DNA from: Clostridia bacterium | Lineage (GTDB): Bacteria; Bacillota; Clostridia; Oscillospirales; Acutalibacteraceae | DNA: 64,000 bases | Reading direction: 5' to 3' | Assembly: GCA_017549285.1 (NCBI GenBank) | Contig: JAFYVE010000006.1 | Coordinates: 1-64,000 of the forward strand | Notes under the pieces: model-generated | Seen by the model: the letters and a program-made list of their open reading frames with translations, nothing else | The model's database searches: none | Told to the model about the DNA's origin: nothing | Translations under genes and position numbers: made by a program | Shown: positions 2,019-22,346 of the stretch, one piece after another | Layout of the letters: each line of letters starts with the position of its first letter | Position numbering within the stretch: position 1 is the first letter of the stretch

Positions 2019-2047
2019 TTGACATTGCGGGGACTAAAGCGTATAAT
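2019..2047 (+). promoter_or_regulatory. Consensus promoter of the kinase / radical SAM / giant-protein operon
   Basis: A perfect TTGACA (2019-2024), 17 bases and a perfect TATAAT (2042-2047), ending 33 bases before the ATG of the HprK-like gene. It should drive 2081 through at least 10335, where the first strong terminator lies. Confidence 0.9.
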
Positions 2048-2080
2048 GTATACTACTATAATAGCAGGGTTGTATCTTTT

Positions 2081-2920
2081 ATGAAAAAAAATTACTTTTT
2101 ATGCGGACATAATGTAAGTATTTCAGCACCTTTTTTCCCTGCAGACAGTAATTATTTCAGGTTGTTTGAAACAGAAGAAACAATATCGGATCTATCAGTA
2201 TTATGTAACATCTGTGATGAATTACCTGAGCCTGACGGCGTGCTGTCAGGAAACAACGAAAGTACATCTGTATATTGTAAAAATAATGAGATTTTCCGTT
2301 ATTCTCATATGGGGACGGACAGCGGTGCAATGACGCATTACAGCAATGTTGATTCAGCTGTAAGCGAAACCTTCATTGTTGAAAGAAATTATAACGTCCT
2401 TATGGATTCCCGATATATGTGGACTACAATTGCGTTGGCACAGCTTATGCTCAATAAGAATGTTTTGTTTTTTCACGCTTCTTTTATAGAATATAACGGT
2501 AACGGAATTATTTTTTCAGCCCCCTGCGGAACAGGGAAAAGCACACAGGCTGCATTATGGGAAAAGCACAGAAATGCAAGAATAATCAATGGTGACAAAG
2601 CAGGCATTTCTGTAAAAGACGGTTCGGTTTTTGCAAACGGAGTGCCTTTCTGCGGAACAAGTGATATATGTAATAATGTAACTGTTCCTCTGAAAGCAAT
2701 TGTATTGCTTGAACAGGCAGAAACTAATGTTATAACACGTCTGACGGGTTTTGATGTTGTTCAGCGGCTGATGCGGAATATCTATCTTGATATGCTCGCC
2801 CCCGATGAACAGCGCAGATGTATTGATTTGTTGATTTCAATTATTTCACAGGTTCCTGTTTATCTTCTTAAATGCACTCCTGATGAACAGGCAGTAAAAG
2901 TATTGGAAACTATTCTCTGA
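2081..2920 (+). CDS. HprK-like P-loop kinase of a peptide-modification locus
   Basis: The protein has 279 aa. It carries a Walker A motif in SAPCGTGKST (residues 146-155) inside a fold resembling HPr kinase. NGDKAG follows at 170-175, then VPFCGT, a pattern typical of the HprK-related proteins that accompany PqqD-type and lasso-peptide clusters. No full HPr kinase N-terminal domain is seen. It is the first gene after a consensus promoter and is followed 39 bases later by a radical SAM/SPASM gene. It is inferred to phosphorylate or condition a component of the small-peptide pathway; the substrate is unknown. The ribosome site is weak (AGGG about 15 bases upstream). Confidence 0.75.
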   Translation: MKKNYFLCGHNVSISAPFFPADSNYFRLFETEETISDLSVLCNICDELPEPDGVLSGNNESTSVYCKNNEIFRYSHMGTDSGAMTHYSNVDSAVSETFIVERNYNVLMDSRYMWTTIALAQLMLNKNVLFFHASFIEYNGNGIIFSAPCGTGKSTQAALWEKHRNARIINGDKAGISVKDGSVFANGVPFCGTSDICNNVTVPLKAIVLLEQAETNVITRLTGFDVVQRLMRNIYLDMLAPDEQRRCIDLLISIISQVPVYLLKCTPDEQAVKVLETIL

Positions 2921-2959
2921 TATTACATTATATATAAGCAGACGGTGGTGATTGAACAG

Positions 2960-4042
2960 ATGGAAATAAATTATGATTTGTTTATGACACAGTTGTTTGC
3001 AAAAGCTGCAGTAAACGGCACACCTCTTGCAGGTTCTTTTGAGCTGACAAGCAGATGCTGTCTTAACTGCAAAATGTGTTACATCCACCGTAGCGGGACA
3101 GATCCCGATGCGATTGCACAGGAGAAAGACACAGGTTGGTGGCTCGATATCGCACAAAAAGCTCAGAAGGCAGGTATGCTCATCCTTCTTCTGACGGGTG
3201 GAGAACCACTTCTGAGACCCGATTTTGATAAAATATATCTTGAATGTCTGAAAATGGGACTTCTTGTTTCGGTCAATACAAACGGTGTGCTTATAGATGA
3301 CGAAAAAGTCCGTCTGTTTGCTGAAAATCCGCCTCAGAGACTCAATATCACTCTTTACGGAACTTCTTCTGAAACCTACGGTGAACTCTGCGGTAATGCA
3401 GGAGCATATGAAAGGGTAATGATTGCCCTGCAAAAACTGAAAGAGGCAGGAGTAAATGTAAAAATCAACTTCAGTATGGTGCCTTATAATAAAAAGGATG
3501 CTTCGGAAGTGTACAGAACAGGTAAAGAGCTCGGTTTTTCCGTTCAGCCTGTCAGTTATATGTTCCCGCCCGTAAGAGCTTCGGGTGATGTTGTCCGTAT
3601 GGCTGCTGAAGAAGCGGCAGAGGCACAGTTTGAATGGCAGAAAAATCATCTCGGCGATGATGATTTCAGAAAATATATTGAAAACTTCAAAAATAACAGA
3701 AACTTCGGTGAGGTCAGTTACGAATGCGGCGAAAAGATCAGCTGCAGAGCGGGACTGAGTACATTCTGGGTGACATGGGACGGAAAAATGACCCCGTGCG
3801 GAATGATGCCTGAACCGAGTGTTCAGATTTCGGATTTTGATGCGGCATGGAAGGAAATCCGTGCTCAGCGTGAAAATATAATGCTTCCTGCAGAATGTTC
3901 GGCTTGTGAATACAGAAAATACTGTGATATTTGCGCAGCAGTTTCAAAAGCTGAAACAGGGAAGTTCAACGGTGTTCCTGAATATGCCTGTAAAAAGGCT
4001 CAGGAATATTACAGATTATGTAAAAATTTCATTGATCATTAA
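2960..4042 (+). CDS. Radical SAM/SPASM peptide-modifying enzyme 1
   Basis: The protein has 360 aa. The SAM-binding 4Fe-4S motif CX3CX2C is Cys33-Cys37-Cys40, and the glycine-rich TGGEP is at 79-83. The last third carries a SPASM-type set of cysteines (SCRAG, PCGM, AECSACEYRKYC, CAA, YAC), so auxiliary iron-sulfur clusters are expected. Such enzymes cross-link Cys or other side chains in ribosomal peptides. It is a close paralogue of the gene at 20896 (shared PP-x-R-x-N-I-x-LYG and CRAG-x-S-x-FW blocks). The ATG at 2960 sits 9 bases after a GGTGGTG stretch; GTG starts at 2945 and 2948 are possible. The likely substrate is the peptide at 10102. Confidence 0.85.
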   Translation: MEINYDLFMTQLFAKAAVNGTPLAGSFELTSRCCLNCKMCYIHRSGTDPDAIAQEKDTGWWLDIAQKAQKAGMLILLLTGGEPLLRPDFDKIYLECLKMGLLVSVNTNGVLIDDEKVRLFAENPPQRLNITLYGTSSETYGELCGNAGAYERVMIALQKLKEAGVNVKINFSMVPYNKKDASEVYRTGKELGFSVQPVSYMFPPVRASGDVVRMAAEEAAEAQFEWQKNHLGDDDFRKYIENFKNNRNFGEVSYECGEKISCRAGLSTFWVTWDGKMTPCGMMPEPSVQISDFDAAWKEIRAQRENIMLPAECSACEYRKYCDICAAVSKAETGKFNGVPEYACKKAQEYYRLCKNFIDH

Positions 4043-4058
4043 AACGGAGGTAATGAAA

Positions 4059-7000
4059 ATGAAAACAGGTAAAAGAATAATATCATTTCTGCTTTGTGCC
4101 GTAATGGTATTCGGAATGTTTTCAGGGGTTGATTTCGGTATTGAGTCATCAATCTTCGACCTTGAAGCATCCGCGGCCGATATAACTCTCGGCGGTATCA
4201 CACAGAAGAGAGTTGTTTCAAACTACGAGAGTCTTTATGCCCAGTATCAGGCAAGGTTCTTTACAGGTAAAAACTCAAACTCTCCCACAAATTTTGTTAT
4301 TCCCGGACTTTCATCTGATAATGACTATACTCCTCAGGGTATGACTTATTGGGAAGAAAAGGAATGGATTCTCATTTCTGCTTACGATGCAAGCGGAGCA
4401 GGCAAGCATTCTGTTATTTATGCTATTGATGCTGTTTCAACAGAATTCGTTGCTCTTTTCAAAATTCTCAATGCCAATGGTTCTGTAAACACAAGCCACG
4501 GCGGCGGTATTGCTGCATCGAAATATAACTTCTACTATGCCGATACAGGCAGTAACATCAGTTATTTCCCGCTTTCTGAAATGGATGTTGCAAAAGGCAC
4601 TGTAAAAGAAGTAAAACTTCGCGGCAGTATCAACTGCGGCGGTGAGCTTGGCGGTGCCGCAACTTCATACTGCTGTTATGAAGACGGTGTCCTCTGGGCA
4701 GGTAACTTCTATTACAGCGGTGATGACCGTTATAAAACATCTGCTCACAGTACATCAGACAGTATGATTGTCGGTTATGAGCTTCATGGTAATTCATCTG
4801 CAGAAGAGTGGTATTATCTCTCAAAGGGATATAACCTTGTCAATCTCAATAACAGTACCGGCGAACAGACTTCAGGTGCTATGAAATATACCACTTCATA
4901 CACAGGTGGTAAAATTATGATTTCGGGTAAAATCACCACTGATACAGCTCTCGGTGAAGTTACTCCCAGTTTTGCATCCTGTAATCTTACAGAAGGAAAA
5001 AAATATATTGTTGAATTTACAGCCTCCAATAATCTTTCAGATATGTATTTCTTTTCTCCTTCCGGCACACACTGTAATGTCAAGCAGTCAACACAGACAA
5101 AGGTTACAAAGCTTGAAAACGGATATTATCATTATTCAATGACATTTACAGCAGGTCTTAAACCCACCGGTGCAGACAGCTCATGGCCCACATCTCAGAG
5201 TACAAACGGAAGTTATACAGGTACATATACTATGCGTTTTGACCAGGACTCTGTTCCTGCAGGCGGTCGTGAATTTATCATTAAAGATTTCGCTGTTATG
5301 GAATATGACCCGGCTGAGACTTTTGATGCAGATCCTCTTTATGAAGGTGCAGGCTGTGCGGGTAATCCTACACATGTTATTACATTCCCCGGAATGGATA
5401 AATTCCAGTATGCTATGGTTTACAAAGGCAGAATCTACATCAGCCGTTCATGGAAGCGTACATCAGGTACTAACCATACAAGAGAACTTATGGTAGGTAA
5501 TCTTGATACAAGTTCAACAGGTACAAATAACCTTGTAATCAACGGCAGAACACGTCCTTGTTATACACTTAAGCTTGATGATATGACCCGTTTCGGCGGT
5601 GACAACGGTAATTCAGGGCTTGACAGAATGCTTTACATGGGTGAAGCACTCTGCGTTATGAACGATAACCTTTACATGTTCGGTGAAGGTGCCGCATGGG
5701 CTTATAACGGCAAGGAAAGCGACAATAAATGTCCCGAACCCATCGATGTTATCTGGAAGATTGATCAGCACGCAATTATGGAGGAACAGCGTCCCAGGAA
5801 TGATATAGCACTCAGCCATTATGAAAAAGTCTGGTCAATTAATGAACTCAGTGAGAATGATGAATATATCATTGTTTATGAATCAGAGCTTGAAGACCCT
5901 GTTACTCAGAAGAATATTCTTTATGCTGTTGATGCATTTGGCGGTTACGGTGCAAAGAAGCTTCCTAAACAGGATGATGCTTCTCAGGCAAACTCAGGCG
6001 ACTCAATGGGTATTGTCGGTTATCCTATAACAACATACAGCAAATCGGATGACGGCGAAATTCTTTATGTTGAAGATTCTGATGATGCAAACAGATCAAT
6101 CCGTTGGAATCTGAAAGCCTCAAATATCTCAGGTTCATCTGCAAACATAACAATAAGTAATACAGACCTCTATTATGTCAAATATAAGAATCTTTATTTT
6201 GGTAGCCGTCTTATTTCTATGAGAACGGCAGATAAAGGTAAGAATCTTGATAAGATAAAGATTTCCACAAATGGTGACGGAAAATTCTATCTGTATTATG
6301 AAGGTGCTTTAAATGCCGAAACAGGCGAACAGCCTAACTATTACCTCTGGTGTAATGACGGCAGTAACAGTACTTATATGGATAAGTATACTAACTATTA
6401 TGCAACACACGGTAAGGTTGGTTATACACCGTCATATCACGGACTTAATGAAACAGCAGGTACATTCCATTCAGACGGTCTTTACTATAAGGATGATGCA
6501 AATTCAGGTAATCTGATGCATAGCCCGGTTGATACAAAATACGGTGCATTCCATATCTACAAGCGTGTTACTGATGTCTATGCAGATACATATGATTCAC
6601 GAGTTTATACAGACCTTAATGCAAAACTTCAGCCGGATGGTACTTATAAAATCGACCTTGAAACTTATGCAATCGGTTCAACTCAGTATAAGGTTCTTGA
6701 TAAAGAAAGACCCACAGACTTTATCTTCGTTGTTGATACATCCGGTTCAATGAGTACACAGGACTGTAATGGTTACCACAGACATAATTCCTTTGACCTT
6801 GAAGCTGCGGCGGGAACACAGGATGCAGCAGGTAAAACTAACGACAAAGAAAACAGCACTACAACGGGCACATATACCGGCAATATGTGGGTTCAGCATG
6901 AAGACGGTGAGATTTGTCGTGTAAGTGTTAAAGTCCAAGGTGACGGCAAATATTGGAAAGTAGGTATGTGGGCAACTAAGTATTATCAGAGAGTTTATCT

Positions 7001-10000
7001 TTGGTACACACATCCCAACGGAACAAAGTACTGGTATCATCCGAATTCAAATTCATGGACAACAACTGAAACCACTTATAATGAGGCACAGCGAATTGAA
7101 GGTGACAGTAAAGACGACAGATACAACACCAACGTATTTTCCGGTGTTTGTTATGAAAAGCGTTCTGACTCTTCCAGATTAAGTAATATGCAGATTGCGC
7201 TTAACCAGCTTACATGGAAGATTCAGGAAAAGGCACAGTCAACAGGTCTTGCTCATCGTATTGCAGTTGTTCAGTACGGTTCAAATTCAAGCGGCAGCTG
7301 GACAAATACAGGTATGTACACAAATTCAGGTACATCAAGAGTCGGCTACACAGGCACAGGCACTGTTTCTGCTGCAAATTACCAGAAGGCATTCCATTCA
7401 GTTTCACAGTTCGGCAATGTAAGAAATATCATAGATAATCTTTCTGCAAGCGGTGACACATTTGTTGATGCCGGTATGGATATGGCATACAATATTGTTG
7501 CAAATTCTGATGCAAATTATCTTGCAGGCGGTGACAGAAGTGCATGTATCATTATGATTACAGACGGTTGTCCCGGTTTCGGCGGTGATGACAGTTCAAC
7601 AGCAAATACAGTCGCAAATGCTGCAATTCAGAATGCATATAAGGCAAAAGATGCCGGTGCATATGTTTATACAGTTCAGATGGGTAACAACAGTATGAGC
7701 GGCTTTGATATGAACACCTATATGGATAATGTTTCATCTGAATTTATTGATGCTAAGAGTATGTCCGACAGCGGTGAAAGAAATGTAAGAGAAATTGAAT
7801 ACCATATTGACGTGCCTATTGCAGGTTTTAATCTTGACGGTCTTGTAACAAGCATTTTCAATTCAGTTACATCAAACAGCAAAAATGCTCTTGCAAAGCT
7901 TGATGCTTCTTCACTTCTTCATGCTGAAATTACAGAAGCATTTGACCTTTCAAACGCAACTGTTACAGCAAAATTGGCAGATGCTGAATATGACGGTCTT
8001 GACAGACTTTATTTTAAAGATCCCGTGACAACATCAGGTGTTACAGTCAACTACAATAAAACTCAGCAGTCAGTTGATGTCAGCGGTTATAATTATTCGG
8101 AATATTATGTTACAAAGGCTAATGCAGACGTAAATAAGGCAAAGAAACTTGTTGTAACATTTGAAGGCGTTGTTCCCAATGTTGATATGGAGCTTAATGA
8201 TGCCAATATCAACGACACTGAAACAACAGCAATTTATCAGAAGTCAGGCGGTATGGAATTCAAGAAGTTCCCCACAGAGCATTTCTCAATGCCTGAATAT
8301 ACCTATGTTCTTGACTTCGACCTTCCCATGCTTGATAAAGAAGTCAACGGTACGCTTGTTTCTGTTGACAGCCTGCCCCGTAAGCAGGATATCAATAACT
8401 ACACAGAACTTCTTTATGCTGATGATACAGATGTTATCGTAGGTTTTGCAAACAGTAATCAGGACCTTGTTTACAGCCTCAGAGACGGTGCATCTAACGA
8501 AACAGACAGATCAAGAGCTTATGTTCTTATTCAGCGTGAAGATGAAACATACGACTGGTTCAAGCTTAACATTCTTCCCGCATCAAATGTGCTTTATGGT
8601 GACTATGATAAGTTTGATGAAACAGGACATTCATCATATCCCGATGCCGAATCATGGGATATGGTAGGTTCAAAAACAGATATTTATCAGTCACTTACAT
8701 CAACAGGAGACCTTTACGGCTTTGATGATGCTTATGATGTTTCAGGTAATGTTTTCTCAGCAGGTAATGCTTATGAAGCAACAGTAAGCGATGCAAATCC
8801 CAGAACAAAGACTCTTAAATTTGATTACACAGGTGATGCAGTTGATGTTATTTCAGCTTGCGGTCCCGAAACAGGTATTCAGATTGTAACAATCAAAAAC
8901 AAGAGTACAGGTGAAATAGAAAAGGTCTATATAATTGATACTTATTACACAGATACATCTTATCTCAACAACGGTCTTCTTTGCCAGGTTCCCGTTATTC
9001 ATCATGAGAATGTAAACGGTTACGGTGAATATTCAGTTGAAATAACCGGTGCTTATCTTGCCTCAATGGTTAATGCAAGACCCATGACAATGTCACTTTA
9101 TTCTGATGACACAATCAATTTCTACACTCCCGACACGGCTTATATGGCTGCAGAAGCAGTGCTTTCAAATGTCGGTATGGAAGAACTTCTTGATGAAGAC
9201 ATTGAAGTGCTCTTTGCAGATGAAAATTCAGTTTTCAACGGTGGCACAGGGGCAACAGGTTCAGCTGTAAGCACTTTTGCTCTCACAAGAGCAATCAGCG
9301 ACAGACCTCTTGATGCACTCAATAACTATTTTGACGGTTTCAGAGTTTATAATCCTCTTGGTGATATGTCAGGTGCTTATGTTGAATCAGAACAGGGTGC
9401 ATCATATTACAATATCGTTAATGAACTCGCTTCAACAAATGATATTATCACAGGTGCTGAAAGTGTTGTAGGTTATGTTGAAGGCGGTTCATATGAAACA
9501 ATCAATTTTGCTGATTATTCCGCTTCAAAAGCACCTATGAATGAAATTTATCTTTCAAAATCTTATGAAGGTGTGACATTCAATCTTGTAACATCACCCG
9601 AAACAAAGGTTATGATCAGCCTTCGTGCAATCAATGGAGCAACAAAGGCAAAGGTCAATAATAAGGAAATCACAGTTAACAGTGCAACTGAAATGTACTA
9701 TGACATTACTGATGCAATTGATGTTGCAAGTGGTAATCTTGTTGTAACAGTTCAGAACAGCGGCAGCGGACTTCTTTCTGTTTGTAACATAAAGGTTGTC
9801 AGTGGCGGTATGGCTCCGCTTATGATGTCTGCTCTTCCCAGAGTAAGAATGATGATGGCGGCTCCTGTTGCAGAGGATGTTCCTGAAGAACCTGAAGTTA
9901 TTCCCGAAGTAACTCCGAATCCCGGTGGAACAGGTAATGACCCCGATCTTGATGTTGAGGGTGAGATTCCCGATTACGTTCCCGGTATGAATGATTCTTC

Positions 10001-10101: not shown

Positions 10102-10335
10102 GTGAAATCTTATATAAAACCGACTATTGCACTTGCAATAACAGGTAATGATTCAGGTTCTTACAGCTCATGCATTGTAAAAGCAGACCTTGATCTTATT
10201 GAGAGTATTCTTGGTCTTGAAGTTCCTTCAAACGGCTTCAGCATGACAGAGCCTTGCGGATATCAGCTTCCCATTGATATGTATTGTAAATTTACATCGG
10301 CAGAATTAGGTGCTGCACAGGCGTTTGTTTCTTAA
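10102..10335 (+). CDS. Candidate modified-peptide precursor 1 (YIKP peptide)
   Basis: The peptide has 77 aa and starts MKSYIKPTI. Cysteines are at 24, 52 and 62. It has no signal peptide and no known domain. The GTG start is 2 bases after the stop of giant protein 1, and its GGGAGGT site (10088-10094) lies in the last codons of that gene, so translation is probably coupled. It is homologous to the 79-aa peptide at 19869: same start, Cys24 in the same place, and a spaced Cys pair near the end. With two radical SAM/SPASM enzymes and a PqqD-like protein in the same locus, a RiPP precursor is the best reading; the product is unknown. Confidence 0.8.
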   Translation: MKSYIKPTIALAITGNDSGSYSSCIVKADLDLIESILGLEVPSNGFSMTEPCGYQLPIDMYCKFTSAELGAAQAFVS

Positions 10336-10341
10336 AAAAAT

Positions 10342-10373
10342 AATAACCGTCGGAAAACTCTCCGACGGTTATT
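10342..10373 (+). terminator. Strong terminator after peptide 1
   Basis: A 13-bp stem, AATAACCGTCGGA / TCCGACGGTTATT, with a 6-base loop and a following run of T. It ends the first module of the locus. The same CCGTCGGA core is used at 26945-26966. Confidence 0.9.
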
Positions 10374-10435
10374 TTTTTTATACAAAAAAGTATAAAATAA
10401 CAATGATAATTCGTCATAATACATATGATGTTTAC

Positions 10436-13500: not shown

Positions 13501-16500
13501 CACGAATTTATCTATACCGGAGACGAGCTCTATAACAAGCATATAGCAGATGTTAGCAGTAAATATGGCTCTTATACAGGTAACACTGCCGTAGGCTATC
13601 ATTCAAGCGGTTATTACGGCATTGGTGGTGTGGGCAGCTCATACTCGAGGGTTTACGCATTTGAGGAAGTTTTCCCCGATCCCACAGCAGTTATTCTTTC
13701 AAACTACGAATATGTCGGTAAAGAAGTAACCCGTGACGAAGTTTGTCCGCATCAGACAGAACAGCTTATGGCGGAAGCACAAAACTTCCCCGACGGTACA
13801 AAGACTTATAAGTGGTCATCAAGCAACACAGATGTTGCAACAATTGATGCAAATGGTAAGATTACCTATACAGGTAAAGCCGGCAAAACTACAATAACAC
13901 TTGAAATTACTAATACAAGTGACGTATCGGAAAATAACATTTCCGATACACAGACGGTTGAAATTACTGTAAATCCGTCACAGATTGACACAAGCAATGA
14001 TAAATACAAGTTCTATCTTACTGACAAATTTGAAGACGGCAAAGAATATGTACTTGCTCATGTCAATACAGAGCAATCTGATGCTGCAAAAAATGATGGT
14101 CTTTCATATACTATTTCGACTGAAAGATATAACGATAATCTTGCTAAAGGCGAAGTGAATCCGATTGTAGCGGGCAGTCCCGATTATATTGAAAATCCAA
14201 CGGAAACTTCAATATGGACAGCAACGGCAGCCGGTGAAGACGGTTATTTCTATCTTACGGATGCATCCGGTAATTATCTTGCAATTCAGTATGATAGCGG
14301 AGATTATGATGTTGTTCGTTCATTCAGCTCTATGGAAGGCGCAACCAATTCTCAGGGAACAGCAATTTCTGCAGACAGTTTTCTTATAAAAACTGACGGA
14401 GAATATCTTTACAGTAAGAGTTCCGGTACTCGTGGTGTATTATTTAATTACGGAAGCAGTGCAGGTTCAACTAAACGTTTCAGCGTAGGTAGCGGAAAAT
14501 CAACCTTTAAGCTTTTTGGAAGAACCCCCTTAGATGTTGATATATACTATAAAACAGAATCATTAGTTCCCGGATATAGTTATGTCCTTGCACATACTCC
14601 CGACAGCGGCATTACCTACACAGTTTCAAGCAATGAATATGCAGGAAGCGATGGAAATTATGTTAAAGCTGATTTGGGGCATGTAATCAAATCAGGAGAT
14701 CCTTCTTATATAGAAGATCCTATAGAATCATCAATATGGAAAGCCGTTGAAAGCGGAGAATCAGGATATGTTTATCTTGTTGACCAGAATGGTCATTACC
14801 TGGCTTTGGATTACACTAAACCGCGTACATTATCTTCGTTTGCGTCTATTGATTCAGCAACCAATAATAACGGAGATCCGATTGATCCTGATTGTTTCCT
14901 TTTCTATTACAATAACGGCTACATTCAGAGTAAGGGTAGCGGAAGCGGTGGTATATCCTTCAATCTGGGAACCACAACTCCAAGATTCCAGGTCAGCTCA
15001 ACAATGGCAAAATTTGAGATTTTCTCAAAAAAGACGACTCAGGCAACATATTATCTTACTGATACATTGACTGAGGGTATGCAGTATATTATTGCAAATT
15101 CCAATGTTGCAGGTTCTGCATACATTGCATCAAGCAATATGTACACAAACAATATAACTCCCAGACTGAAGGAAGGTACAGTTTCTGTTTCAGGTTCGTC
15201 TGTTTATATTGAAAATCCTGAAAATGCACTTGTTCTTACTTGTGTAAAATCAGAAAAGAACGGATATTATTATCTTGTTGATTCAAACGGAAAATATCTG
15301 ACTCTGAATGCACTCAGAAATCAAGATGCAAACGGTGACAGAATAGGTACTGATACTGCAGTGGTTGCTATGGCTGAACTTGATGAATATGAACGTATCT
15401 ACAGCCAGTTAAGATACCGCGTAAGTTCTACATCAGGCACATTCGTTCTTCAGAATGCCGGCGGAACAACTGAAAATTCAGACGGAACATCAACAATTAA
15501 AGCCGGTTATCTGACTTTCTATTACAGCGGCACAAGCAATCCTCGTCTTACCCTTAGCATGTGGGCTCCGAAAGAGGAAAGTGTATATCTTTATGCTCTT
15601 AAGGATGAGGAACCTGCAGAAGCAGCTGATCCTCAGACCCAGATCCGTATCAACGGTGCTACATCAAGTAAAGATATCACAAACCAGCTTTACAACCGTT
15701 ACTTTATTGAAAACGGTGACAGTGAGCGACTTCTCAGATATGTTAAAGATGTAAATGCAGGTTATACATACGAATGGTCTTCATCAGACACATCAATTGC
15801 AACAATTGATAATGAAGGTCTTGTAACATATACAGGTAAAGAAGGCTATGTTGTAATTTCACTTAAGGTTACAGGTACTGATATCAACGGAATACCCTAC
15901 ACCGAAACTGTTATCACAACGCTTCAGGTGTTTGACGGTCCTTTTGAACTTTCATCAAATGATTACCCCGAATATCCCTATGAAGGTTCAATCCGTGTAA
16001 ACAAGACTGCATCAAACATAGTTAACGGATATAAATTCCAGGAAACAGGTGTAACTGAAATTGAACTTGGCGCAACAGGTGTTCCCGTTACACGTCCTGT
16101 TGATGTTATTGTAATTTTTGACCATTCAACATCAATGAATGATAACAAGAAACTTCAGGATGCGATGGAAAAAACACAGGAATTTGCACTTCGCGTTCTT
16201 GAAACAAATCCGAACAACAGAATTGCAATTGTTGCTTTTGACTCTATGGGCAGTCGTTACAAATCTGCAATTTCTACTGAAGTTTTAAATACACTTAATG
16301 AATCCGAAGCAGGTGTTATCACAGGTGACGGCACAATTGAGAATGCTTTTGTTGCTGCCGGTGATGAAGCTGCACTTATCGAGTCAATCAAGAGCCTGAG
16401 TACAAATAACCAGGGTAACACAAACTATGACTATGGTCTTAAAAAGGCTTATGATATCCTGAAACACGCAAAAGATGACGGTAGCCCCAACGACAGAATC

Positions 16501-19500
16501 GTTGTATTTATGTCAGACGGTGAACCCAACCAGTTCAACGGTGTTCAGATAGATTCATCTACTGCTGAAAGCAATGCAATCAGAGAAGCTTGGCTTACAG
16601 GTGATAAGCAGTTCTTCATTGACAACGGCTACCTTAATGCTGACGGTTCAGTAAAAGATGAATATCCTGCGTTTGCACTCTTCAATGAAGACGGTGACAA
16701 CTGGTATGCAAAAGCTCTTAAAACTCCCACCGGTGAACCGTCAAATCTTCCTGCATTTGATTATTATGCACCTTATCAGACCGGTCTTGGTGCAAAGATT
16801 TTCTCAATCGGATATCACACAAAGGACACCTTTGGTGCTCTTAGCAAAATGGCATCAACTCCTGCTGACTATTTCAACGATATCGGTAGTGAACTCAGCG
16901 CAGCTTTTGATAAGATTATCTTTCAGGTTTTCTATGCAGCATCAGATGCAGTTGTAACTGATAAGATGGGTGCACAGTTTGATGTTCAGTTTGCTCCTGC
17001 AGTTACAATTCAGGGAACAACCTATACTTTTAGCCCCTCATTTGAAGTCGGTGCATGGACACTTGATAATCAGGGCAATCGTGTTGCTTATAATGTAATA
17101 GAAAAAATCACATTCGCAACAAACGATAATGGTGACCTCACAAGTGCAACATCTACACTTACAGGTGATGCGTTTGATGAAGCCGCAAGCACAGTTGAAG
17201 GTCAGTATGTTTCCTACAATCTTCTTACTGAAACATTTACATGGAATATCGGCGACATCAACAGAAATGAAATAACTCTTAAGTACTATGCAAGCCTTAC
17301 AGGTGCAGCAAAGGGCGAAAGAGAAGCCGGTATATATAATACAAACGAATCTGCAAAACTCAGCTATACAAACTACAGAGGAACAAAGAATTGTTCAAAG
17401 TTCTTCCCCGTTCCCACTCTCGGTTGGAATCAGGCTGCAGTAAGCTATGAATTCTATCTTGTAGACGAAAATGGTCAGCCCATAGGTCTTACCGGCAGCG
17501 TAGTTCCCTTTGCAGAAAGAGTAATCATCGGTCGTGAACAGACAAAGGCTCTTCTTCTCAATGAGAAAGGTGAAGTTTCAAGCAGTCTTATTGCCGAATC
17601 TGTACTTCCCGAAGGCTATAAACTCTTCAACCCCGATGCAGTTTACAATATTTCTGTTTCAAGTGCTGCAGACGGCAGTTCGGGTTCGGCAAGTATTTCG
17701 GACGACACACTTACAACATACTTCCGTAACGGTTCATATTACATCAATGTGAATGGTGAAGTACCCGATGTCACATCTTATTACAATACTGCAGTTTCAT
17801 TTGCAGTCAAAGTTTCAGAAGGTCTTGTTCCCGATACAATTGTAATTGACTACGGTCTGCCCGTTAATATCAATGTTCTTGGTAACGACTATGTTGTAGA
17901 CGGCGGTGAAATCACAGGTGTTGCAAAGACTGTCAACACAACAGACCTTAACAATATAGGTCACACTTCTTCTAAACTTGCAAGCGGTGGAAAAACTGAC
18001 GTACAGATGACCTACGGTAATGTTACTGTTTCTGAACCTGATATTTATAATCCTTACGGACAGTATATTACTTACACTCCCACACGCACGGATATGAATA
18101 CGGAAGATGTATTCTATTATGAATACTTTGCTGGCGGAAAATATTATTATGCACAGGTAGTTGTTATTCCCGCAACAAACATCTATTATGAAGAATCATT
18201 TATGAATTTTGTTGACGGTAACGGATATAAGTGGGAAGATGTCGGAACAACTCTTGAAGAAAAGTTCCAGGCAGAAGACAGACCCGGTAACTTTGCATTC
18301 GACGACTTTGACGCAGACAATGCATACGGTTATGACAATGCATATGCTGACAACTACACATATTCACTCGGCAGTGCAAAAATGACAACTGTTGACCAGG
18401 ATTCTGCAGGTAAAGAACCAAAAGCCACATTTACATTTGCAGGTACAGGCTTCAATCTCTACAGTGTCACAAACAGCGACACAGGCATGATCCAGGTTAC
18501 AATTTACAAGGCAGGTACAACCACAATTGTTAAGAACTTCCTTGTTGATACATACTATGGTTACACAGGTGAAGGCGATTCTCTTGCTCCTGCTCCCGTT
18601 GAAGACGGTATATACCAGGTACCCGTATTAAGCAGAAGTGATCTTGATTACGGCACATATGATGTTGTTATCAAGCCTCTTTACAGCCGTGCATTTGACC
18701 CCAACTATGCAGACGGTGCAGGTGAATACAGCATTTATGTTGACTCTGTAAGAATCTTCAATCCTGCAGGCGTTGATGGTAATGTAAGCGATGCTGTAGG
18801 TGATGCTTACCTTAAAGACGGTGAATATGCACCTGAATTCAAGGAAATCAGAGATATTGTTATTTCTGCAGAAGATTTCAGCAACAATGTTACTTCTCTC
18901 GGTTACAACGGAGCAATCTTCCTTGACGGTAAGACTGATGCAGGGCTTGCAACATATAAAGCACAGGGACCCAAGAATGAACTTTATCTTGCCCCCAATC
19001 AGGCAGTTTCATTCATGGTAAGCTCAGAGACCGCAGATACTCTTGCAAGTCTTCAGCTTGGTATGAAGGTTGTTTCAGGCGGTGCAACTGCAAAAGTTGT
19101 CGTTATGAACACTTCTGAAAAATCACCGAACTATTTCGAACTCAACAGTGCTCACGAAATGTTCAGAGACATTGATTCCGCAATCGTATGGAATCAGGAA
19201 AAGATTACTTACGGTGATGATAATGTATATGAAACACTTCATCCCATTGTAATTGCAAACGTTTCAGATACAGAAGTTATCTCTCTTACATCTCTCAAGT
19301 GGGCATATACTTCAGCTCCTGATGCAGGAGAATCAGCAATGAGCTTTATGGTTAATGAAGAAACTCCCATGATGGCAACATTTGCTCTCAGACGTGCTAT
19401 GGCTGTTGCTGAGCCTTACAATGAAGAAAATGTAACAATCGAGTGGAGCGATACTTCATTTGTTGAAGGCAAAGAGGCTACACTTACAGTTACAACACTT

Positions 19501-19872
19501 CCCGAAGTTGTCAGAGTAACAGTTGACGGCATTGATATCACAGATTGTGAAATCAATGAAGACGGTAATAAGGTATGGACATATACATTCACAGTTGTTC
19601 AGACAGGTGAAAACGCTTATGATGTTGTTCTTTATGATCGTAACGGTGAATGTGGTGACGCCATAAAGACAGAAACAATTTTTGTTGAAGAAGCACCTGA
19701 AGAAATTATTCCCGATGCTCCCGAAACAGAAGAACCTTCAGATGATAACACCGGTAACGGTGCTGATGAAGACGATTCTGCAGATAACGGAGATAACGGA
19801 ATGAGCATCTTCAGCAAAATCATTGAATTTATCAAAAAGATTATCAATTTCTTCAGGAGGGTATTTGCATGA
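10519..19872 (+). CDS. Giant secreted metallophosphoesterase / Ig-like / VWA protein 2 (3117 aa)
   Basis: A Sec signal peptide (about 1-35) leads into a calcineurin-like metallophosphoesterase domain: Asp50, GGD (Asp83), GNHD (Asn123-Asp125), His188 and GHNH (226-229). Five Big_2-like Ig domains (WSSS..VATI patterns) are interleaved with four beta-trefoil-like repeats (Y-V-L-A-H ... YLAL), located near nucleotides 12165-12700, 14005-14530, 14540-15040 and 15045-15620. A VWA domain follows with MIDAS DHSTS at Asp1868/Ser1870/Ser1872 and SDG at Asp2000. The C-terminal region matches giant protein 1 and ends in an acidic linker and an amphipathic FSKIIEFIKKIINFFRR helix. GGAGG (10507-10511) precedes the ATG. 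A cell-surface enzyme/adhesin is inferred. Confidence 0.87.
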   Translation: MKKVISLLLSVVIAFSVITPAIPGLDFADIKAEAASGSGSAYATLFTTSDLQVNDYYKQVETMISYAVDDGYSAPDALLFGGDFQTSSNAEESITHHMDNMERLFNKFFPYYHTDNLVFIKGNHDARDERHYETGLYEFDNFMVYVINEDDYRAGNLNDAKTASENLKIAMDRLLTSGNDKPVFVMTHVPFHHNSRGEYSQSAYGRYLFEVLNDYGNYMDIIFLFGHNHSGAFDDYIGGSVNYLGVGDTIYISSYDGKNNLNYGAEHYTSETLTFTYANYGYGGYSNNTEGTITDTVHDIGAVKSTKIETMGVFDIYEDKITLSRYTLEGKYNEIKTINRKTPSAADGSCSEPYVNVAGYGEAFVGTATGAVANATGFSENATYTWKSSNTNIAKVNGTSSVCQISYVGEGTATITVTVKEGSQTASASYDVKVSGNTVGAHAVSTSVLMGFSDVTGQTLEYYNIDFPYSISLSGYYTAAKSVSNEKWTTSAASVATVNNGLVTFVGNGNATITYSVDIVDANGTKKTYNSSVTFIVSNGDKFVASDEIIGYKNNYYPVEILSPGNRYVLYSPRTNYTESSAASSIAISGEKTTNGSYGALKGVSVTPVNNVITTDNELIVWECIKSDSSGLYYLKNLSTGEYFVTRYSNPTKLFTTTATLSEYSIESYQFKVFRYATDVIDGGVQVLMANNTNAYVRNDGSKFYSSSSPAVVIPYQAETILAEPETEAHIEMGGDYVEDSTQTVYKVTDATSIRLYGEHKNYGGNVVETWSSSDTSVATISADGTVDFTGTSGKTTITYTIKSDNVPAKSLTFTLVSKNGREATRTFRYVENIQTDRPYIFVNKSSLTPGDGFALSTSKISKTAMLPADIEIKQNEIHDYLYVEIPASSSPEYVWTTGGLDTSFVYITTEKSIQYTWWNDLNNDGIKDFTEGSGEITYSNGYLEGVGEIAGVNNMMPTSEYLGAEITGYGEWGVTGSLYTLPLAEADLNNLAPHEFIYTGDELYNKHIADVSSKYGSYTGNTAVGYHSSGYYGIGGVGSSYSRVYAFEEVFPDPTAVILSNYEYVGKEVTRDEVCPHQTEQLMAEAQNFPDGTKTYKWSSSNTDVATIDANGKITYTGKAGKTTITLEITNTSDVSENNISDTQTVEITVNPSQIDTSNDKYKFYLTDKFEDGKEYVLAHVNTEQSDAAKNDGLSYTISTERYNDNLAKGEVNPIVAGSPDYIENPTETSIWTATAAGEDGYFYLTDASGNYLAIQYDSGDYDVVRSFSSMEGATNSQGTAISADSFLIKTDGEYLYSKSSGTRGVLFNYGSSAGSTKRFSVGSGKSTFKLFGRTPLDVDIYYKTESLVPGYSYVLAHTPDSGITYTVSSNEYAGSDGNYVKADLGHVIKSGDPSYIEDPIESSIWKAVESGESGYVYLVDQNGHYLALDYTKPRTLSSFASIDSATNNNGDPIDPDCFLFYYNNGYIQSKGSGSGGISFNLGTTTPRFQVSSTMAKFEIFSKKTTQATYYLTDTLTEGMQYIIANSNVAGSAYIASSNMYTNNITPRLKEGTVSVSGSSVYIENPENALVLTCVKSEKNGYYYLVDSNGKYLTLNALRNQDANGDRIGTDTAVVAMAELDEYERIYSQLRYRVSSTSGTFVLQNAGGTTENSDGTSTIKAGYLTFYYSGTSNPRLTLSMWAPKEESVYLYALKDEEPAEAADPQTQIRINGATSSKDITNQLYNRYFIENGDSERLLRYVKDVNAGYTYEWSSSDTSIATIDNEGLVTYTGKEGYVVISLKVTGTDINGIPYTETVITTLQVFDGPFELSSNDYPEYPYEGSIRVNKTASNIVNGYKFQETGVTEIELGATGVPVTRPVDVIVIFDHSTSMNDNKKLQDAMEKTQEFALRVLETNPNNRIAIVAFDSMGSRYKSAISTEVLNTLNESEAGVITGDGTIENAFVAAGDEAALIESIKSLSTNNQGNTNYDYGLKKAYDILKHAKDDGSPNDRIVVFMSDGEPNQFNGVQIDSSTAESNAIREAWLTGDKQFFIDNGYLNADGSVKDEYPAFALFNEDGDNWYAKALKTPTGEPSNLPAFDYYAPYQTGLGAKIFSIGYHTKDTFGALSKMASTPADYFNDIGSELSAAFDKIIFQVFYAASDAVVTDKMGAQFDVQFAPAVTIQGTTYTFSPSFEVGAWTLDNQGNRVAYNVIEKITFATNDNGDLTSATSTLTGDAFDEAASTVEGQYVSYNLLTETFTWNIGDINRNEITLKYYASLTGAAKGEREAGIYNTNESAKLSYTNYRGTKNCSKFFPVPTLGWNQAAVSYEFYLVDENGQPIGLTGSVVPFAERVIIGREQTKALLLNEKGEVSSSLIAESVLPEGYKLFNPDAVYNISVSSAADGSSGSASISDDTLTTYFRNGSYYINVNGEVPDVTSYYNTAVSFAVKVSEGLVPDTIVIDYGLPVNINVLGNDYVVDGGEITGVAKTVNTTDLNNIGHTSSKLASGGKTDVQMTYGNVTVSEPDIYNPYGQYITYTPTRTDMNTEDVFYYEYFAGGKYYYAQVVVIPATNIYYEESFMNFVDGNGYKWEDVGTTLEEKFQAEDRPGNFAFDDFDADNAYGYDNAYADNYTYSLGSAKMTTVDQDSAGKEPKATFTFAGTGFNLYSVTNSDTGMIQVTIYKAGTTTIVKNFLVDTYYGYTGEGDSLAPAPVEDGIYQVPVLSRSDLDYGTYDVVIKPLYSRAFDPNYADGAGEYSIYVDSVRIFNPAGVDGNVSDAVGDAYLKDGEYAPEFKEIRDIVISAEDFSNNVTSLGYNGAIFLDGKTDAGLATYKAQGPKNELYLAPNQAVSFMVSSETADTLASLQLGMKVVSGGATAKVVVMNTSEKSPNYFELNSAHEMFRDIDSAIVWNQEKITYGDDNVYETLHPIVIANVSDTEVISLTSLKWAYTSAPDAGESAMSFMVNEETPMMATFALRRAMAVAEPYNEENVTIEWSDTSFVEGKEATLTVTTLPEVVRVTVDGIDITDCEINEDGNKVWTYTFTVVQTGENAYDVVLYDRNGECGDAIKTETIFVEEAPEEIIPDAPETEEPSDDNTGNGADEDDSADNGDNGMSIFSKIIEFIKKIINFFRRVFA

Positions 19873-20108
19873 AAAATTATATAAAACCCGGCATCTCTTT
19901 CCAGAGTCTGGAGCTTGCAACAAATATAGCTGCAGGGTGTGTATATACAGCAACACTTGCTCCTGCAGAATGTCCTGTTGACATTCCCGGCCAGCCAGGG
20001 CTGTCAGTCTTCCAGGAAGAAACAGGCTGTATGCTTTATTCTCCCGAAGGAAATGACCTGATCTGCTATCACGTACCAACAGCAGACTCAAACGTATTTG
20101 AATCTTAA
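19869..20108 (+). CDS. Candidate modified-peptide precursor 2 (YIKP peptide)
   Basis: The peptide has 79 aa and starts MKNYIKPGI, with cysteines at 24, 35, 54 and 66. Its ATG overlaps the TGA of giant protein 2 (ATGA at 19869-19872). Its AGGAGGG site (19855-19861) lies inside that gene, so it is translationally coupled. It is homologous to peptide 1 and has an extra Cys35 flanked by Pro. The region after residue 24 is rich in Pro, Gly and Cys (ECPVDIPGQPG), a plausible modified core. Radical SAM enzyme 2 and the PqqD-like protein are encoded downstream. Secretion is not evident from the sequence. Confidence 0.8.
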   Translation: MKNYIKPGISFQSLELATNIAAGCVYTATLAPAECPVDIPGQPGLSVFQEETGCMLYSPEGNDLICYHVPTADSNVFES

Positions 20109-20115
20109 TTTCCAC

Positions 20116-20147
20116 AAAGCCGTGTCCTTTTCCGATGGCACGGCTTT
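20116..20147 (+). terminator. Weak terminator or attenuator after peptide 2
   Basis: A 9-bp stem, AAAGCCGTG / CACGGCTTT, with a 14-base loop and only a short T run. It sits between peptide 2 and the lipoprotein and may reduce rather than stop transcription into the modifying enzymes. Confidence 0.55.
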
Positions 20148-20170: not shown

Positions 20171-20842
20171 ATGAGATTAATCAGAATTATTTCAGCTTTT
20201 GTGTTAATATCGGTAATTCTTCTATTTGCATCCTGCACACCTGCAGAAAAAGAAGAAACCGTAACAGGTGTTCAGTTTCCCGTTACGGTTATGAATGATA
20301 TTGTTATTGAAGATATGTATTCTTATAGCGGTGAATTTCCCGAAGACGGAAGTTTTGCTGAAAAAGAGAATGTAGTGGCACTTAAGGTCAGAAATGAATC
20401 AGAAAAACCATTACAGTTTTTAAGAATTTATGTCACAACAGACCTGAAGGAAATGGTTTTTGAAATTTCAACTCTTCCCTCAGGAATGGCTGTGAATGTT
20501 TTTGAAAAAAGCGGACAGTCTCTCAGTAAAAATGAAAAAATAACCGATATAAAGGGTTATGCTCGTGCAGATTTTGAAAATCAGATAGGACTTATGCGAG
20601 AAACATTTGAAATTGACGTGCACGATAAGATTATCAATATAAAAAATATCTCAGGAGCCGATATTGATTCTGATATCTATCTCTATTATAAAAAGAAAGA
20701 TAAAGACGGTAATTATTTCGGCGGAATCACTTTCCGTACAAAAGCAGACGGGCTTAAAGCAGGTGAACTCAAACAGCTTCCTGCATCACATTTTGACCTT
20801 TCTGACAGCGAAGTGATTTTTATAGATTATGCAGATAATTAA
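20171..20842 (+). CDS. Lipoprotein of the peptide-modification locus
   Basis: The protein has 223 aa. Its N terminus is a lipoprotein signal ending in LLFASC, so it should be anchored on the outside of the membrane. The mature part looks beta-rich (alternating hydrophobic stretches such as ENVVALKVRNESEKPLQFL), like an Ig-type fold, and matches no family I recognise. An AAAGGTG site (20158-20164) is 6 bases before the ATG at 20171; an in-frame ATG at 20135 lies inside the terminator hairpin and is unlikely. It is encoded between peptide 2 and radical SAM 2, so a role in surface presentation or immunity for the peptide is possible but not shown. Confidence 0.75.
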   Translation: MRLIRIISAFVLISVILLFASCTPAEKEETVTGVQFPVTVMNDIVIEDMYSYSGEFPEDGSFAEKENVVALKVRNESEKPLQFLRIYVTTDLKEMVFEISTLPSGMAVNVFEKSGQSLSKNEKITDIKGYARADFENQIGLMRETFEIDVHDKIINIKNISGADIDSDIYLYYKKKDKDGNYFGGITFRTKADGLKAGELKQLPASHFDLSDSEVIFIDYADN

Positions 20843-20895
20843 AAGCATTTTATGATATCTGTTTTTATTGATTGAAGAGTTTAGGGGTGAAAAAA

Positions 20896-22041
20896 TTGGA
20901 TAACAAACCTGTATCAATAAATCCCGTTCCGGATGAACCGTTGATATCTTCATATCTTCATAACAGGGCAAGGGATATGGGCATTCCCGTTTCGGGTACT
21001 TTTGAAATCACTGGAAGATGCAATTTCAACTGCAGAATGTGTTATGTTCATAATCAGCAGAGTAATCTGATGCAAAAAGAAGAACTTTCTGCCGAGTGGT
21101 GGATTGAAACAGGAAGAAAAGCAGTTGAAGCAGGTATGGTTTTTCTTCTTATAACAGGCGGAGAACCTCTTCTTCGTGATGATTTTCCCGAAATCTATAA
21201 GGCTCTGCACGAAATGGGGCTTGTTATTTCAATTAATTCAAACGGATATCTTCTTTCGGGAAAAATAAAAGAACTTTTCAGTAAGTATCCGCCCAACCGA
21301 ATAAACATTTCACTTTACGGGTCGGATAATGATACTTATGAAAAATTTACGGGTGTACGTGCTTTTGATACAATAATCCGTAATATAGCAGAAATGCGTG
21401 AAATGGGAATAAGTATGCGATTCAATTGCAGTATTACGCCCGATAACCGTGATGATATGGAAAATATCTTCAATGTTGCCAATGAACTTGGTATGCATAT
21501 AAAAACAACATCATATATGTATCCTCAGACAAGACTTAACGGTACATTCGGTGAAAATAATAACAGGCTTTCACCTTCTGAGGCTGCCGAATGCCGTGTA
21601 GGGTGGTCACGTCTTCGTTATTCAACTGATGATTTCCTTTCACGTGCCAGAGGAATGAAGAAAACTATTGATGAATTCCTTGCGACAGAACGTGAATGTG
21701 AAGAAGAAAACGGAATTCGTTGCAGAGCAGGCAGAAGCAGTTTCTGGCTTAATAAAAAAGGTGAAATGGCTGTATGCGGAATGATCGACAAATCATTTGA
21801 TATTAAAGAACTCGGATTTGTTGAAGCGTGGAATCAGGTAAAGAAGCTCTCTGCTTCGATAAGGTTGCCTGCTGAATGTCTGAATTGTCCTTACAGAAGC
21901 ATTTGTAATGTCTGTGCAGCAGTATGTTATACGGAAACAGGGGATTTTTCAAAGAAACCCGAATATGTGTGTCAGTTCAGCCGTGAAACAGCAAGACTTA
22001 CACAAATTGAACTTGAAAGGCTTACAAAAAATGGAAATTAA
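20896..22041 (+). CDS. Radical SAM/SPASM peptide-modifying enzyme 2
   Basis: The protein has 381 aa. CX3CX2C is Cys42-Cys46-Cys49, followed by ITGGEPLL. A SPASM-type C-terminal region carries RCRAG, VCGM, ECLNCPYRSIC, CAA and YVC. It is collinear with radical SAM 1 through most of its length, so the pair arose by duplication. TTG at 20896 follows AGGGGTG (20883-20889) with 6-base spacing; GTG at 20887 and TTG at 20872 are less likely. The 3' end overlaps the PqqD-like gene by 11 bases, indicating translational coupling of enzyme and chaperone. The likely substrate is the peptide at 19869, possibly also the one at 10102. Confidence 0.85.
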   Translation: MDNKPVSINPVPDEPLISSYLHNRARDMGIPVSGTFEITGRCNFNCRMCYVHNQQSNLMQKEELSAEWWIETGRKAVEAGMVFLLITGGEPLLRDDFPEIYKALHEMGLVISINSNGYLLSGKIKELFSKYPPNRINISLYGSDNDTYEKFTGVRAFDTIIRNIAEMREMGISMRFNCSITPDNRDDMENIFNVANELGMHIKTTSYMYPQTRLNGTFGENNNRLSPSEAAECRVGWSRLRYSTDDFLSRARGMKKTIDEFLATERECEEENGIRCRAGRSSFWLNKKGEMAVCGMIDKSFDIKELGFVEAWNQVKKLSASIRLPAECLNCPYRSICNVCAAVCYTETGDFSKKPEYVCQFSRETARLTQIELERLTKNGN

Positions 22042-22291
22042 AAAGAAAGTTATTCTGCGTTCGGTTGCAGGTGAATATATGCTTATGCCCGTTGGTGAAA
22101 CCGTGTCAGAGTATAATGGCATATTTATGCTGACTGAAAGTGCATATCTGTTGTGGAAAGCAATAACTGACGGCGGAGAAAAAGAAGACCTTGAAAAAGT
22201 TCTTAAGGATGAATACGGAATTGACGATGAAACTGCAGAAGCAGATGTTACTGAGTTTATCGAAAAATTGCATTCATACGGAATTGTCTGA
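22031..22291 (+). CDS. PqqD-like peptide chaperone (RiPP recognition element)
   Basis: The protein has 86 aa with the PqqD-fold pattern: a beta-rich N terminus (VAGEYMLMPVGE), then LTESAYLLWKAI and a C-terminal helical part (DVTEFIEKL). PqqD-type proteins bind the leader peptide of RiPP precursors and present it to the radical SAM enzyme. The ATG lies inside the end of radical SAM 2 in another frame (11-base overlap). It is the only PqqD-like gene in the locus, so it probably serves both enzymes. This small protein strongly supports the RiPP reading. Confidence 0.8.
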   Translation: MEIKKKVILRSVAGEYMLMPVGETVSEYNGIFMLTESAYLLWKAITDGGEKEDLEKVLKDEYGIDDETAEADVTEFIEKLHSYGIV

Positions 22292-22309
22292 TTTTAAATT
22301 AAATACAAA

Positions 22310-22346
22310 AAAGGAGCTTAACTTCTGATTTAAGTTAAGCTCCTTT
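22310..22346. terminator. Bidirectional terminator closing the peptide locus
   Basis: A perfect 15-bp stem, AAAGGAGCTTAACTT / AAGTTAAGCTCCTTT, with a 7-base loop. It lies between the convergent PqqD-like gene and the radical SAM gene at 22350. Confidence 0.9.

Follow-up and report, generated by a model that had tools for sequence, protein, structure and literature searches.

The window analysed here is a stretch of 64,000 nucleotides from contig JAFYVE010000006.1 of a Clostridia bacterium (Acutalibacteraceae). All parts that had been named in the first-pass annotation of the locus were found, namely an HprK-like kinase, two radical SAM enzymes, a PqqD-like protein, a lipoprotein, two giant proteins and two short peptides. 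The features, all on the forward (+) strand, are the following:

2081..2920, +, predicted HprK-like peptide kinase, 279 aa, ScmC/HprK_rel_A-like
2945..4042, +, radical SAM/SPASM-type enzyme 1 (module A), Pfam Radical_SAM 7.8e-24
4053..10100, +, giant secreted protein 1, 2015 aa, with signal peptide, VWA, shared module, acidic linker and amphipathic C-terminal helix
8415..9803, +, shared module of giant 1, type A (long insertion)
10102..10335, +, peptide 1, 77 aa, YIKPTI, 3 Cys, FVS end, GTG start
10336..10379, +, intrinsic-terminator hairpin 3' of peptide 1, -22.2 kcal/mol, z -7.2, T run
10519..19872, +, giant secreted protein 2, 3117 aa, with phosphoesterase-like N-terminus, Big_2 repeats, VWA, GBS104-like Ig, shared module and C-terminal helix
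17824..19446, +, shared module of giant 2, type B
19869..20108, +, peptide 2, 79 aa, YIKPGI, 4 Cys, VFES end, ATG start
20116..20147, +, hairpin between peptide 2 and the next genes (terminator or attenuator), -19.7 kcal/mol for 20105-20165, z -3.0
20171..20842, +, membrane-anchored extracytoplasmic protein, a lipoprotein in the window
20887..22041, +, radical SAM/SPASM-type enzyme 2 (module B), best solved relative SkfB, 3e-14
22031..22291, +, PqqD-like RRE, 86 aa, lasso-B1 type, PqqD match 2.9e-15
22310..22346, +, terminator-like hairpin at the operon end, z -5.1

The GTG of peptide 1 lies one base past the stop codon of giant 1, and the ATG of peptide 2 overlaps the stop of giant 2 (ATGA). 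The clean terminator 3' of peptide 1 divides the two modules of the window. An Rfam scan of positions 1-26000 returned no element at gathering threshold. Metallophos, Big_2, VWA_2 and GBS104-like Ig of giant 2 all score above their cut-offs, and the VWA_2 match of giant 1 (1.5e-5) reaches 26 bits versus a cut-off of 27. The signal peptide and acidic linker of giant 1 and the C-terminal helix of both giants were read from the sequence, as was the anchor type of the protein at 20171..20842 and its relatives, some of which have a transmembrane anchor.

A chance neighbourhood of these genes was rejected because the same gene set returns in relatives. The locus is one case of a system found mainly within its own bacterial family. 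Two modules sharing one kinase and one PqqD-like protein, as first described, hold true for the window, but this is a local arrangement: other modules have their own sets or are giant-peptide pairs whose fetched surroundings contain no enzyme gene (L110, L117, L118, L127, L132). A PqqD gene on contig C55, considered as a second system, stands alone and was discarded.

We then compared the enzymes with known families. The best PDB match of the kinase profile is the HPr kinase 1jb1 (8.8e-5); the window kinase as a single sequence matched no HPr kinase in PDB or Pfam. Pfam Hpr_kinase_C was detected in six of 16 kinase relatives (best 3.1e-4), and His132, G152/K153/T155 of the P-loop, N170 and D172 are invariant in the 16 aligned kinases. 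Enzyme 2 also matches Pfam Radical_SAM (1.2e-22). The SPASM match of enzyme 1 (0.016) is under the cut-off and none is listed for enzyme 2; the Cys pattern was recognised by inspection. The best PDB relatives of the PqqD profile are the lasso B1 proteins TbiB1 (5v1u, 3.4e-11) and TfuB1 (6jx3, 1.5e-8). Papers on lasso-peptide clusters describe HPr-kinase homologues that phosphorylate mostly a C-terminal Ser, as well as a YxxPxL leader motif in the precursors (PMC10368454, PMC8498205, PMC5067487). Phosphorylated lasso peptides of the paeninodin type (precursor A, kinase K, RRE B1) thus resemble our system in the HprK-like kinase (a match at profile level), the Ser-ending precursor, the B1-type RRE and a YxxPx[I/L]-like leader motif. 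They differ in that our system has SPASM-type radical SAM enzymes and peptides with three to five Cys residues, whose genes lie behind that of a surface giant. No Pfam family corresponding to a lasso B2 protease or asparagine-synthetase-like cyclase was found among the nine locus proteins. That kinase, radical SAM and PqqD proteins form a maturation set for short peptides, as initially proposed, is well supported by inference from the profile matches of the kinase and PqqD and from the lasso kinases.

The SynChlorMet cassette consists of the kinase ScmC, the PqqD-like ScmD and the two radical SAM enzymes ScmE and ScmF. A kinase, a PqqD-like protein and two radical SAM/SPASM enzymes (NCBIfam ScmC, ScmE, ScmF) are thus common to both systems; we know of no surface protein in that cassette. 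ScmC is the best NCBIfam match of the window kinase and is found with 12 of the 16 kinases at E up to 0.01; the matches of the radical SAM enzymes include ScmE and ScmF. But the kinase scores 28 bits versus a cut-off of 125 for ScmC, the radical SAM enzymes 72-80 bits versus 400 for ScmE/ScmF, and both window peptides are without an NCBIfam match at E up to 1. With scores this far under the curated cut-offs, it is hardly conceivable that the locus is a SynChlorMet cassette, and just a distant kinship of the enzyme set is left. RiPPs made by SPASM radical SAM enzymes (SkfB, PqqE, sactipeptides, ranthipeptides) share the enzyme family and the Cys-bearing precursor, but not the kinase, the conserved C-terminal Ser or the pairing with a surface protein. 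The rSAM-with-lipoprotein system TIGR04133 was matched weakly (54.6 bits versus a cut-off of 425). It pairs a radical SAM enzyme with a lipoprotein partner, as in the window; to our knowledge it has no giant, kinase or peptide pairing. Our search of a literature library found no paper on a layout of giant and modified peptide.

The peptides counted here are the 47 with a profile E up to 1e-3, including two near-identical pairs (L061/L116 and L121/L122). Weaker matches outside this set are L067, which ends in Ser, and L071, L073, L133, L134 and L135, which have other ends. Alignment A1 contains 20 peptides picked by eye; it omits the incomplete L044 and L060 and the more distant L068 and L069 (Ser end) and L071, L073, L075, L077 and L078 (non-Ser). 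YxxPx[ILVFM] occurs in 40 of the 47, and 45 end in Ser; three to five Cys residues are typical of the peptides. The two exceptions are an interrupted peptide and one without its second half. All six Ser codons are used at this position (39 TCN, 6 AGY), and among 708 called ORFs of at least 100 aa, Ser does not rank with the eight residues that most often come last. The main profile favours Ser-ending peptides because it was built from them; more distant kinase-bearing loci have peptides with other ends (L071, L073, L075, L066). The two window peptides had been called homologous. In favour of this, they have YIKP, three aligned Cys residues, an F-x-S ending and paralogous neighbours in common. 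However, a profile built from the type of peptide 2 alone, an independent homology test for the window pair, does not detect peptide 1; it matched five of ten other-type peptides (best E 0.033). The two types, A and B, are only weakly alike.

We also looked at relatives in which peptides might be absent or eroded while the enzymes stay, and 12 enzyme loci without a listed peptide gave a mixed outcome. L062 has a plausible Ser-ending peptide, and short peptides of other types are present in L066, L070, L072, L074 and L077. No peptide was seen nearby in L040, L047, L050, L054, L064 and L076; the giant of L047 runs off the contig with its end out of view, and the genomes of L040, L047 and L050 carry peptides elsewhere.

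The claim that each peptide is paired with a giant is also supported, by a shared module, coupled or nearly coupled starts, a common expression unit and parallel divergence. A peptide gene is located directly 3' of a giant in 33 of 47 cases (31 plus L044 and L129), and its start lies -4 to +29 bases from the stop of the giant in 29 of the 31 pairs. A module of about 500 residues, without Pfam or PDB family match, is present in each of the 31 giants that immediately precede a peptide. It is C-terminal in 30 of them; in L063 another 855 residues follow. The module was defined from peptide neighbours, and its profile (A3) contains 20 giants or parts out of 35 found. Giant and peptide are never fused into a single frame among the peptide-profile matches listed (largest open frame 148 aa). 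In five of the 47 cases, the fetched sequence contains no module giant (L057, L059, L068, L120, L130). Of 44 peptide genes (L044, L060 and L068 omitted), 31 have a hairpin of at least nine pairs behind them, versus 1/23 for the lipoprotein-family gene, 2/44 for the kinase and 7/51 for the radical SAM gene. At a laxer cut of seven pairs the contrast is smaller (34/44 versus 7/23, 9/44 and 22/51). Therefore, giant and peptide look like one expression unit.

Among 398 genomes of the bacterial family, scored with at most three module candidates per genome, the peptide profile was found in 33, the module profile in 33 and both in 27 (hypergeometric 1.9e-30, a value that ignores kinship). The window's genome (88% complete) encodes four module giants and four peptides, neighbours one to one. 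A module match in genome G107 was not found again in the fetched region L186, and in G108 two open frames (4956 and 24,959 residues) were dismissed as artefacts, since a run of N lies in the fetched stretch. We also fetched regions in which the module had no listed peptide beside it. They gave 29 further module ORFs, and 28 of these are without a detected peptide (24 of the 28 with downstream sequence in view). Therefore, the module can do without a peptide next to it.

Module types A and B are separated by measured spacing, and peptide and module are of matching type in every unit that could be measured (32 of 34). Searching for the type-A insertion with two regular expressions recovered 7/9 and 6/9, fewer than all because the motif varies. 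Over 23 units, the divergence of the peptide correlates with that of the module (r 0.74; partial r 0.62 given radical SAM), whereas the partial correlation between peptide and radical SAM given the module is 0.02. The control with N-terminal parts of the giants, parts that do not align, gave r 0.37. Adjacency leads to joint inheritance, and this alone can yield parallel divergence.

These results bear on the possibility that the peptide is a RiPP of the usual kind, acting as a secreted signal or as a bacteriocin, and that its gene happens to lie behind that of a surface protein because both serve the same niche function. Enzyme set, leader motif and kinase do resemble natural-product clusters. 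In addition, the related cluster G432, from another family, comprises module, lipoprotein-family gene, PqqD, a Ser-ending peptide, kinase, radical SAM and an ABC exporter, and the divergent family loci L067 and L068 have, beside kinase and peptide, what we take to be an ABC-like exporter and a small hydrolase-like gene. On the other hand, the enzyme-free pairs of giant and peptide, the match of subtypes in 32/32 units, a divergence that tracks the module and not the radical SAM enzyme, and an ABC-like gene in only five of 30 loci (labels by eye) are at odds with this explanation, and we give it a minor though appreciable chance. This last count also made us reject a dedicated exporter within the loci; no conserved exporter or leader protease was found among them. 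Outside the family, G687 combines module, Ser-ending peptide, kinase and radical SAM.

The original observation that the locus itself lacks an exporter was correct, but G432 carries one behind these genes, and a homologue is present elsewhere in the window's genome, on another contig (37% identity, residues 20-565 of 579). Beside this unlinked gene lie chaperone genes, identified by eye, and a member of Pfam NTP_transf_5.

A missing conserved exporter gene, the tight coupling with the gene of the giant and a peptide that, by its residues, has no signal peptide would also fit an intracellular cofactor or helper that, for example, the giant needs to fold, to be secreted or to pass quality control ahead of export. 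The membrane-anchored extracytoplasmic protein in many loci and the ABC exporter of the G432 operon speak against this role, which we regard as unlikely. It is even less plausible that the giant is the substrate of radical SAM enzyme and kinase, with the peptide merely recruiting them. The module is the common element of 31/31 paired giants, but leader-like YxxP, conserved Cys residues and terminal Ser belong to the peptide, the modification would have to precede Sec export, and many module proteins have no adjoining peptide.

Taken together, we lean towards a RiPP-type maturation system that serves surface proteins, with the peptide as partner of the giant. That the peptide is the substrate of the enzymes is highly probable, and by analogy to the lasso-cluster kinases its C-terminal Ser is likely the phosphorylation site. 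A physical partnership between peptide and module has about even chances. According to this model, a Sec-exported giant and a peptide of about 80 residues would be made from one coupled message, mostly ending at the hairpin, and gene order and hairpins suggest that the enzymes would be supplied by read-through or from elsewhere. In the cytoplasm, the PqqD-like RRE would bind the N-terminal YxKPx[I/V/F] of the peptide and present it to the radical SAM enzyme, which would modify the Cys-bearing middle; the HprK-like kinase would phosphorylate the conserved Ser. The finished peptide would be exported, in the window's genome perhaps via the unlinked ABC transporter, and outside the cell could become the partner of the conserved module of the giant, as pairing and parallel divergence suggest. 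More tentatively, the radical-SAM-modified and C-terminally phosphorylated peptide might be a functional, prosthetic-group-like part on the constant module of otherwise unrelated giants instead of a free natural product, and thus represent a new class of surface assembly. RiPP peptides are known mainly as free products or small cofactors. In this system, gene order, expression unit and evolution link the precursor to one particular domain of very large surface proteins. Should this prove to be a physical partnership, radical SAM chemistry along with the phosphorylation of peptides would take part in building the cell surface of some gut Clostridia.

Two sortase genes are present in the window's genome. 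Attachment of the window giants by sortase was rejected, since both appear from their C-termini to end in a helix and to have no sorting signal. The giant of G432 carries a sortase-like signal at its C-terminus.

Inspection of genes and domains at the locus (2019-22346 of the window, which was placed on contig C39 of a draft genome of 2.3 Mb and 88% completeness) confirmed the gene list of the first-pass annotation. The two modules have one kinase and one PqqD-like protein between them, in the following gene orders:

Module A: HprK-like kinase, radical SAM 1, giant 1, peptide 1
Module B: giant 2, peptide 2, membrane-anchored protein, radical SAM 2, PqqD-like protein

The stop of giant 1 and the start of peptide 1 are 1 base apart, the stop of giant 2 is overlapped by the start of peptide 2, and three hairpins are located 3' of peptide 1, peptide 2 and PqqD. 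Unusually for an adhesin-like protein, giant 2 (10519-19872) carries at its N-terminus a calcineurin-like phosphoesterase domain (2.2e-8 in Pfam), to which Ig-like and VWA domains are fused.

The N-terminal parts of the giants are dissimilar, and one shared module of about 500 residues is present in 31/31 giants whose gene immediately precedes that of a peptide. The module is located near the C-terminal end in 30/31 (in L063, 855 more residues follow). Judged by eye, an acidic linker and then an amphipathic helix come after it in most cases. Scanning 20 members against Pfam gave no recurring match, any family being found in at most one, and the PDB holds no relative up to E 10. The module giant of the order relative G432 (L209:1-10110) ends in a sortase-like sorting signal and lacks the amphipathic helix, which suggests that the helix takes the place of cell-wall anchoring in the window's family, the Acutalibacteraceae. 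Two tandem module proteins without peptides were observed in G253 (L174:692-10089); in their final 60 residues there is no acidic linker of the kind present in many other module proteins.

The pairing of this surface-protein module with a peptide is new, while the enzyme set is of a known kind in a new setting; our searches of the open-access literature, covering few subscription papers, returned nothing on such a pairing. The 20-row peptide profile matches in 33 of 398 family genomes, the module in 33 and both in 27; G358, one of the six module-only genomes, has a Ser-ending peptide overlooked by the profile search. The window's genome contains four peptides and four module giants, every pair being adjacent. 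Overall, 33 of 47 peptides are positioned directly behind a giant, and another 4 share their cluster with a module giant located at a different position; the others lie at contig ends (5) or have no module giant in reach (5). Among 29 further module ORFs, whose regions were fetched as no peptide was listed, 28 have no adjoining peptide, with downstream sequence in view for 24 of these. If module type is defined by the spacing between two motifs, module type and peptide type agree: the spacing is 99-115 residues in 9/9 modules beside type-A peptides (the type of peptide 1) and 30-44 residues in 23/25 beside type-B peptides (that of peptide 2), the other two not being measurable.

Peptide and module distances are correlated (Mantel r 0.80, 34 units, 0/5000 permutations), also inside type B alone (r 0.77). 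For 23 units with a nearby radical SAM gene, raw r was 0.74 for peptide and module versus 0.51 for peptide and enzyme, and partial r was 0.62 for peptide and module given the enzyme versus 0.02 for peptide and enzyme given the module, the enzyme being the nearest one, which may differ from the true partner. Partial r against the peptide was -0.08 for the kinase (22 units), -0.05 for the lipoprotein (15) and 0.05 for PqqD (15). These sequence comparisons support the view that giant and peptide form a unit. Contact between them is not proven by parallel divergence, because the nearest enzyme may not be the partner and neighbours are co-inherited. The earlier interpretation is supported in part.

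Hairpin placement also points to giant and peptide as a probable unit. Within 90 bases 3' of the gene, stems of 9 or more pairs follow 31/44 peptide genes, 1/23 lipoprotein, 2/44 kinase and 7/51 radical SAM genes (stems of 7 or more: 34/44, 7/23, 9/44 and 22/51, respectively). No 9-pair stem follows the peptide in the four clusters where the giant sits elsewhere (L053, L112, L115, L131; 4/4).

In an alignment of 20 peptides picked by eye, the invariant positions (peptide 2 numbering) are Tyr4, three cysteines (Cys24, Cys54 and Cys66) and the C-terminal Ser79. A C-terminal Ser is present in 45/47 peptide ORFs (profile E up to 1e-3); the seed peptides were chosen by N-terminal motif or similarity, their last residue not being used, and the resulting profile is biased towards Ser-ending peptides. 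As for the two exceptions, the ORF in L060 is interrupted, a second piece in another frame ending in Ser, and in L044 the second half is missing and the next gene starts there. The terminal codons are TCN (39) and AGY (6). Peptides of G432, G687, G571, L039, L171 and L062 likewise end in Ser; more distant types in L071, L073, L075, L077, L078 and L066 do not. The two peptides had been called homologous, which stands only in part: types A and B are no more than weakly alike, the type-B profile finding 5/10 type-A peptides (best E 0.033) and missing peptide 1. Because of this weak likeness, their identical start motif and last residue are the more telling.

The best matches of the PqqD profile are lasso leader-binding proteins (TbiB1, 3.4e-11; TfuB1, 1.5e-8). 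The kinase profile matches HPr kinase (8.8e-5), which was not found with the window kinase as a single sequence. The kinases have an invariant His, P-loop and Asp, and a motif of the same kind is reported for lasso kinases. In lasso precursors YxxPxL is described as a conserved leader motif, the leader is reported to be bound tightly by B1, and phosphorylation is reported as always at the C-terminal Ser until one exception at Ser3; precursors of kinase-bearing lasso clusters from two phyla have little in common but a C-terminal Ser, according to a review. On these grounds the peptide is the likely substrate of the PqqD, radical SAM and kinase activities. The closest solved relative of radical SAM 2 is SkfB.

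An ABC exporter is encoded inside the operon of G432, and the window's genome has a homologue (37% identity, 1e-117; next best 1e-48). On its contig C27, an ABC exporter gene overlaps a gene of Pfam NTP_transf_5 (L223:6977-9894). Since nucleotidyltransferases of some kinase-bearing lasso clusters are reported to add hexoses to the phosphate, the predicted phosphoserine could be elaborated further.

Radical SAM 1 homologues (E up to 1e-30) occur in 29/200 family genomes, the window's included. In the regions fetched around these and around peptide-profile matches, module A recurs as kinase, radical SAM, giant and peptide, and module B, with variations, as giant, peptide, membrane-anchored protein, kinase, radical SAM and PqqD. 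Giant-peptide pairs without an enzyme gene inside the fetched region were found in L110, L117, L118, L127 and L132. Not all close relatives carry the system: G190, a genome from the window's genus, matches none of the three profiles, and the distribution across the family is patchy. Beyond the family the system is rare. The peptide profile matches 13/391 class genomes at E up to 0.01, below 1e-3 only the window's genome and G432, which are also the only ones with giant-module matches among 291 class genomes. Six regions around matches outside the window's genome were inspected (G432, G687, G571, two of G414, G655), and two are full cases: G432 and G687, the latter with module (8e-64), peptide (E 0.0017), kinase and radical SAM. 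An 11-kb contig of G571 carries peptide, kinase, radical SAM and PqqD, the module not being found there, and the system is not seen in both G414 regions or in that of G655.

Elsewhere in the window's genome, a radical SAM gene is paired with one for a membrane-anchored protein on C14 (L040:4804-6651), both of the kind seen in these loci, with no nearby peptide, kinase or giant; this enzyme perhaps acts in trans. A PqqD gene stands alone on C55 (88606-88815; L230:16601-16864), between what we take to be asparaginase-like and glycosidase-like genes close to leuS. It looks like the remnant of a lost cluster copy, because a similar neighbourhood in the congeners G080, G321 and G366 (L053, L112, L115) holds a cluster of peptide, lipoprotein, radical SAM, PqqD and giant. 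Seven clusters (L043, L059, L060, L126, L130, L171, L190) adjoin genes resembling capsule or exopolysaccharide regulators, presumably a tyrosine phosphatase and a chain-length regulator.
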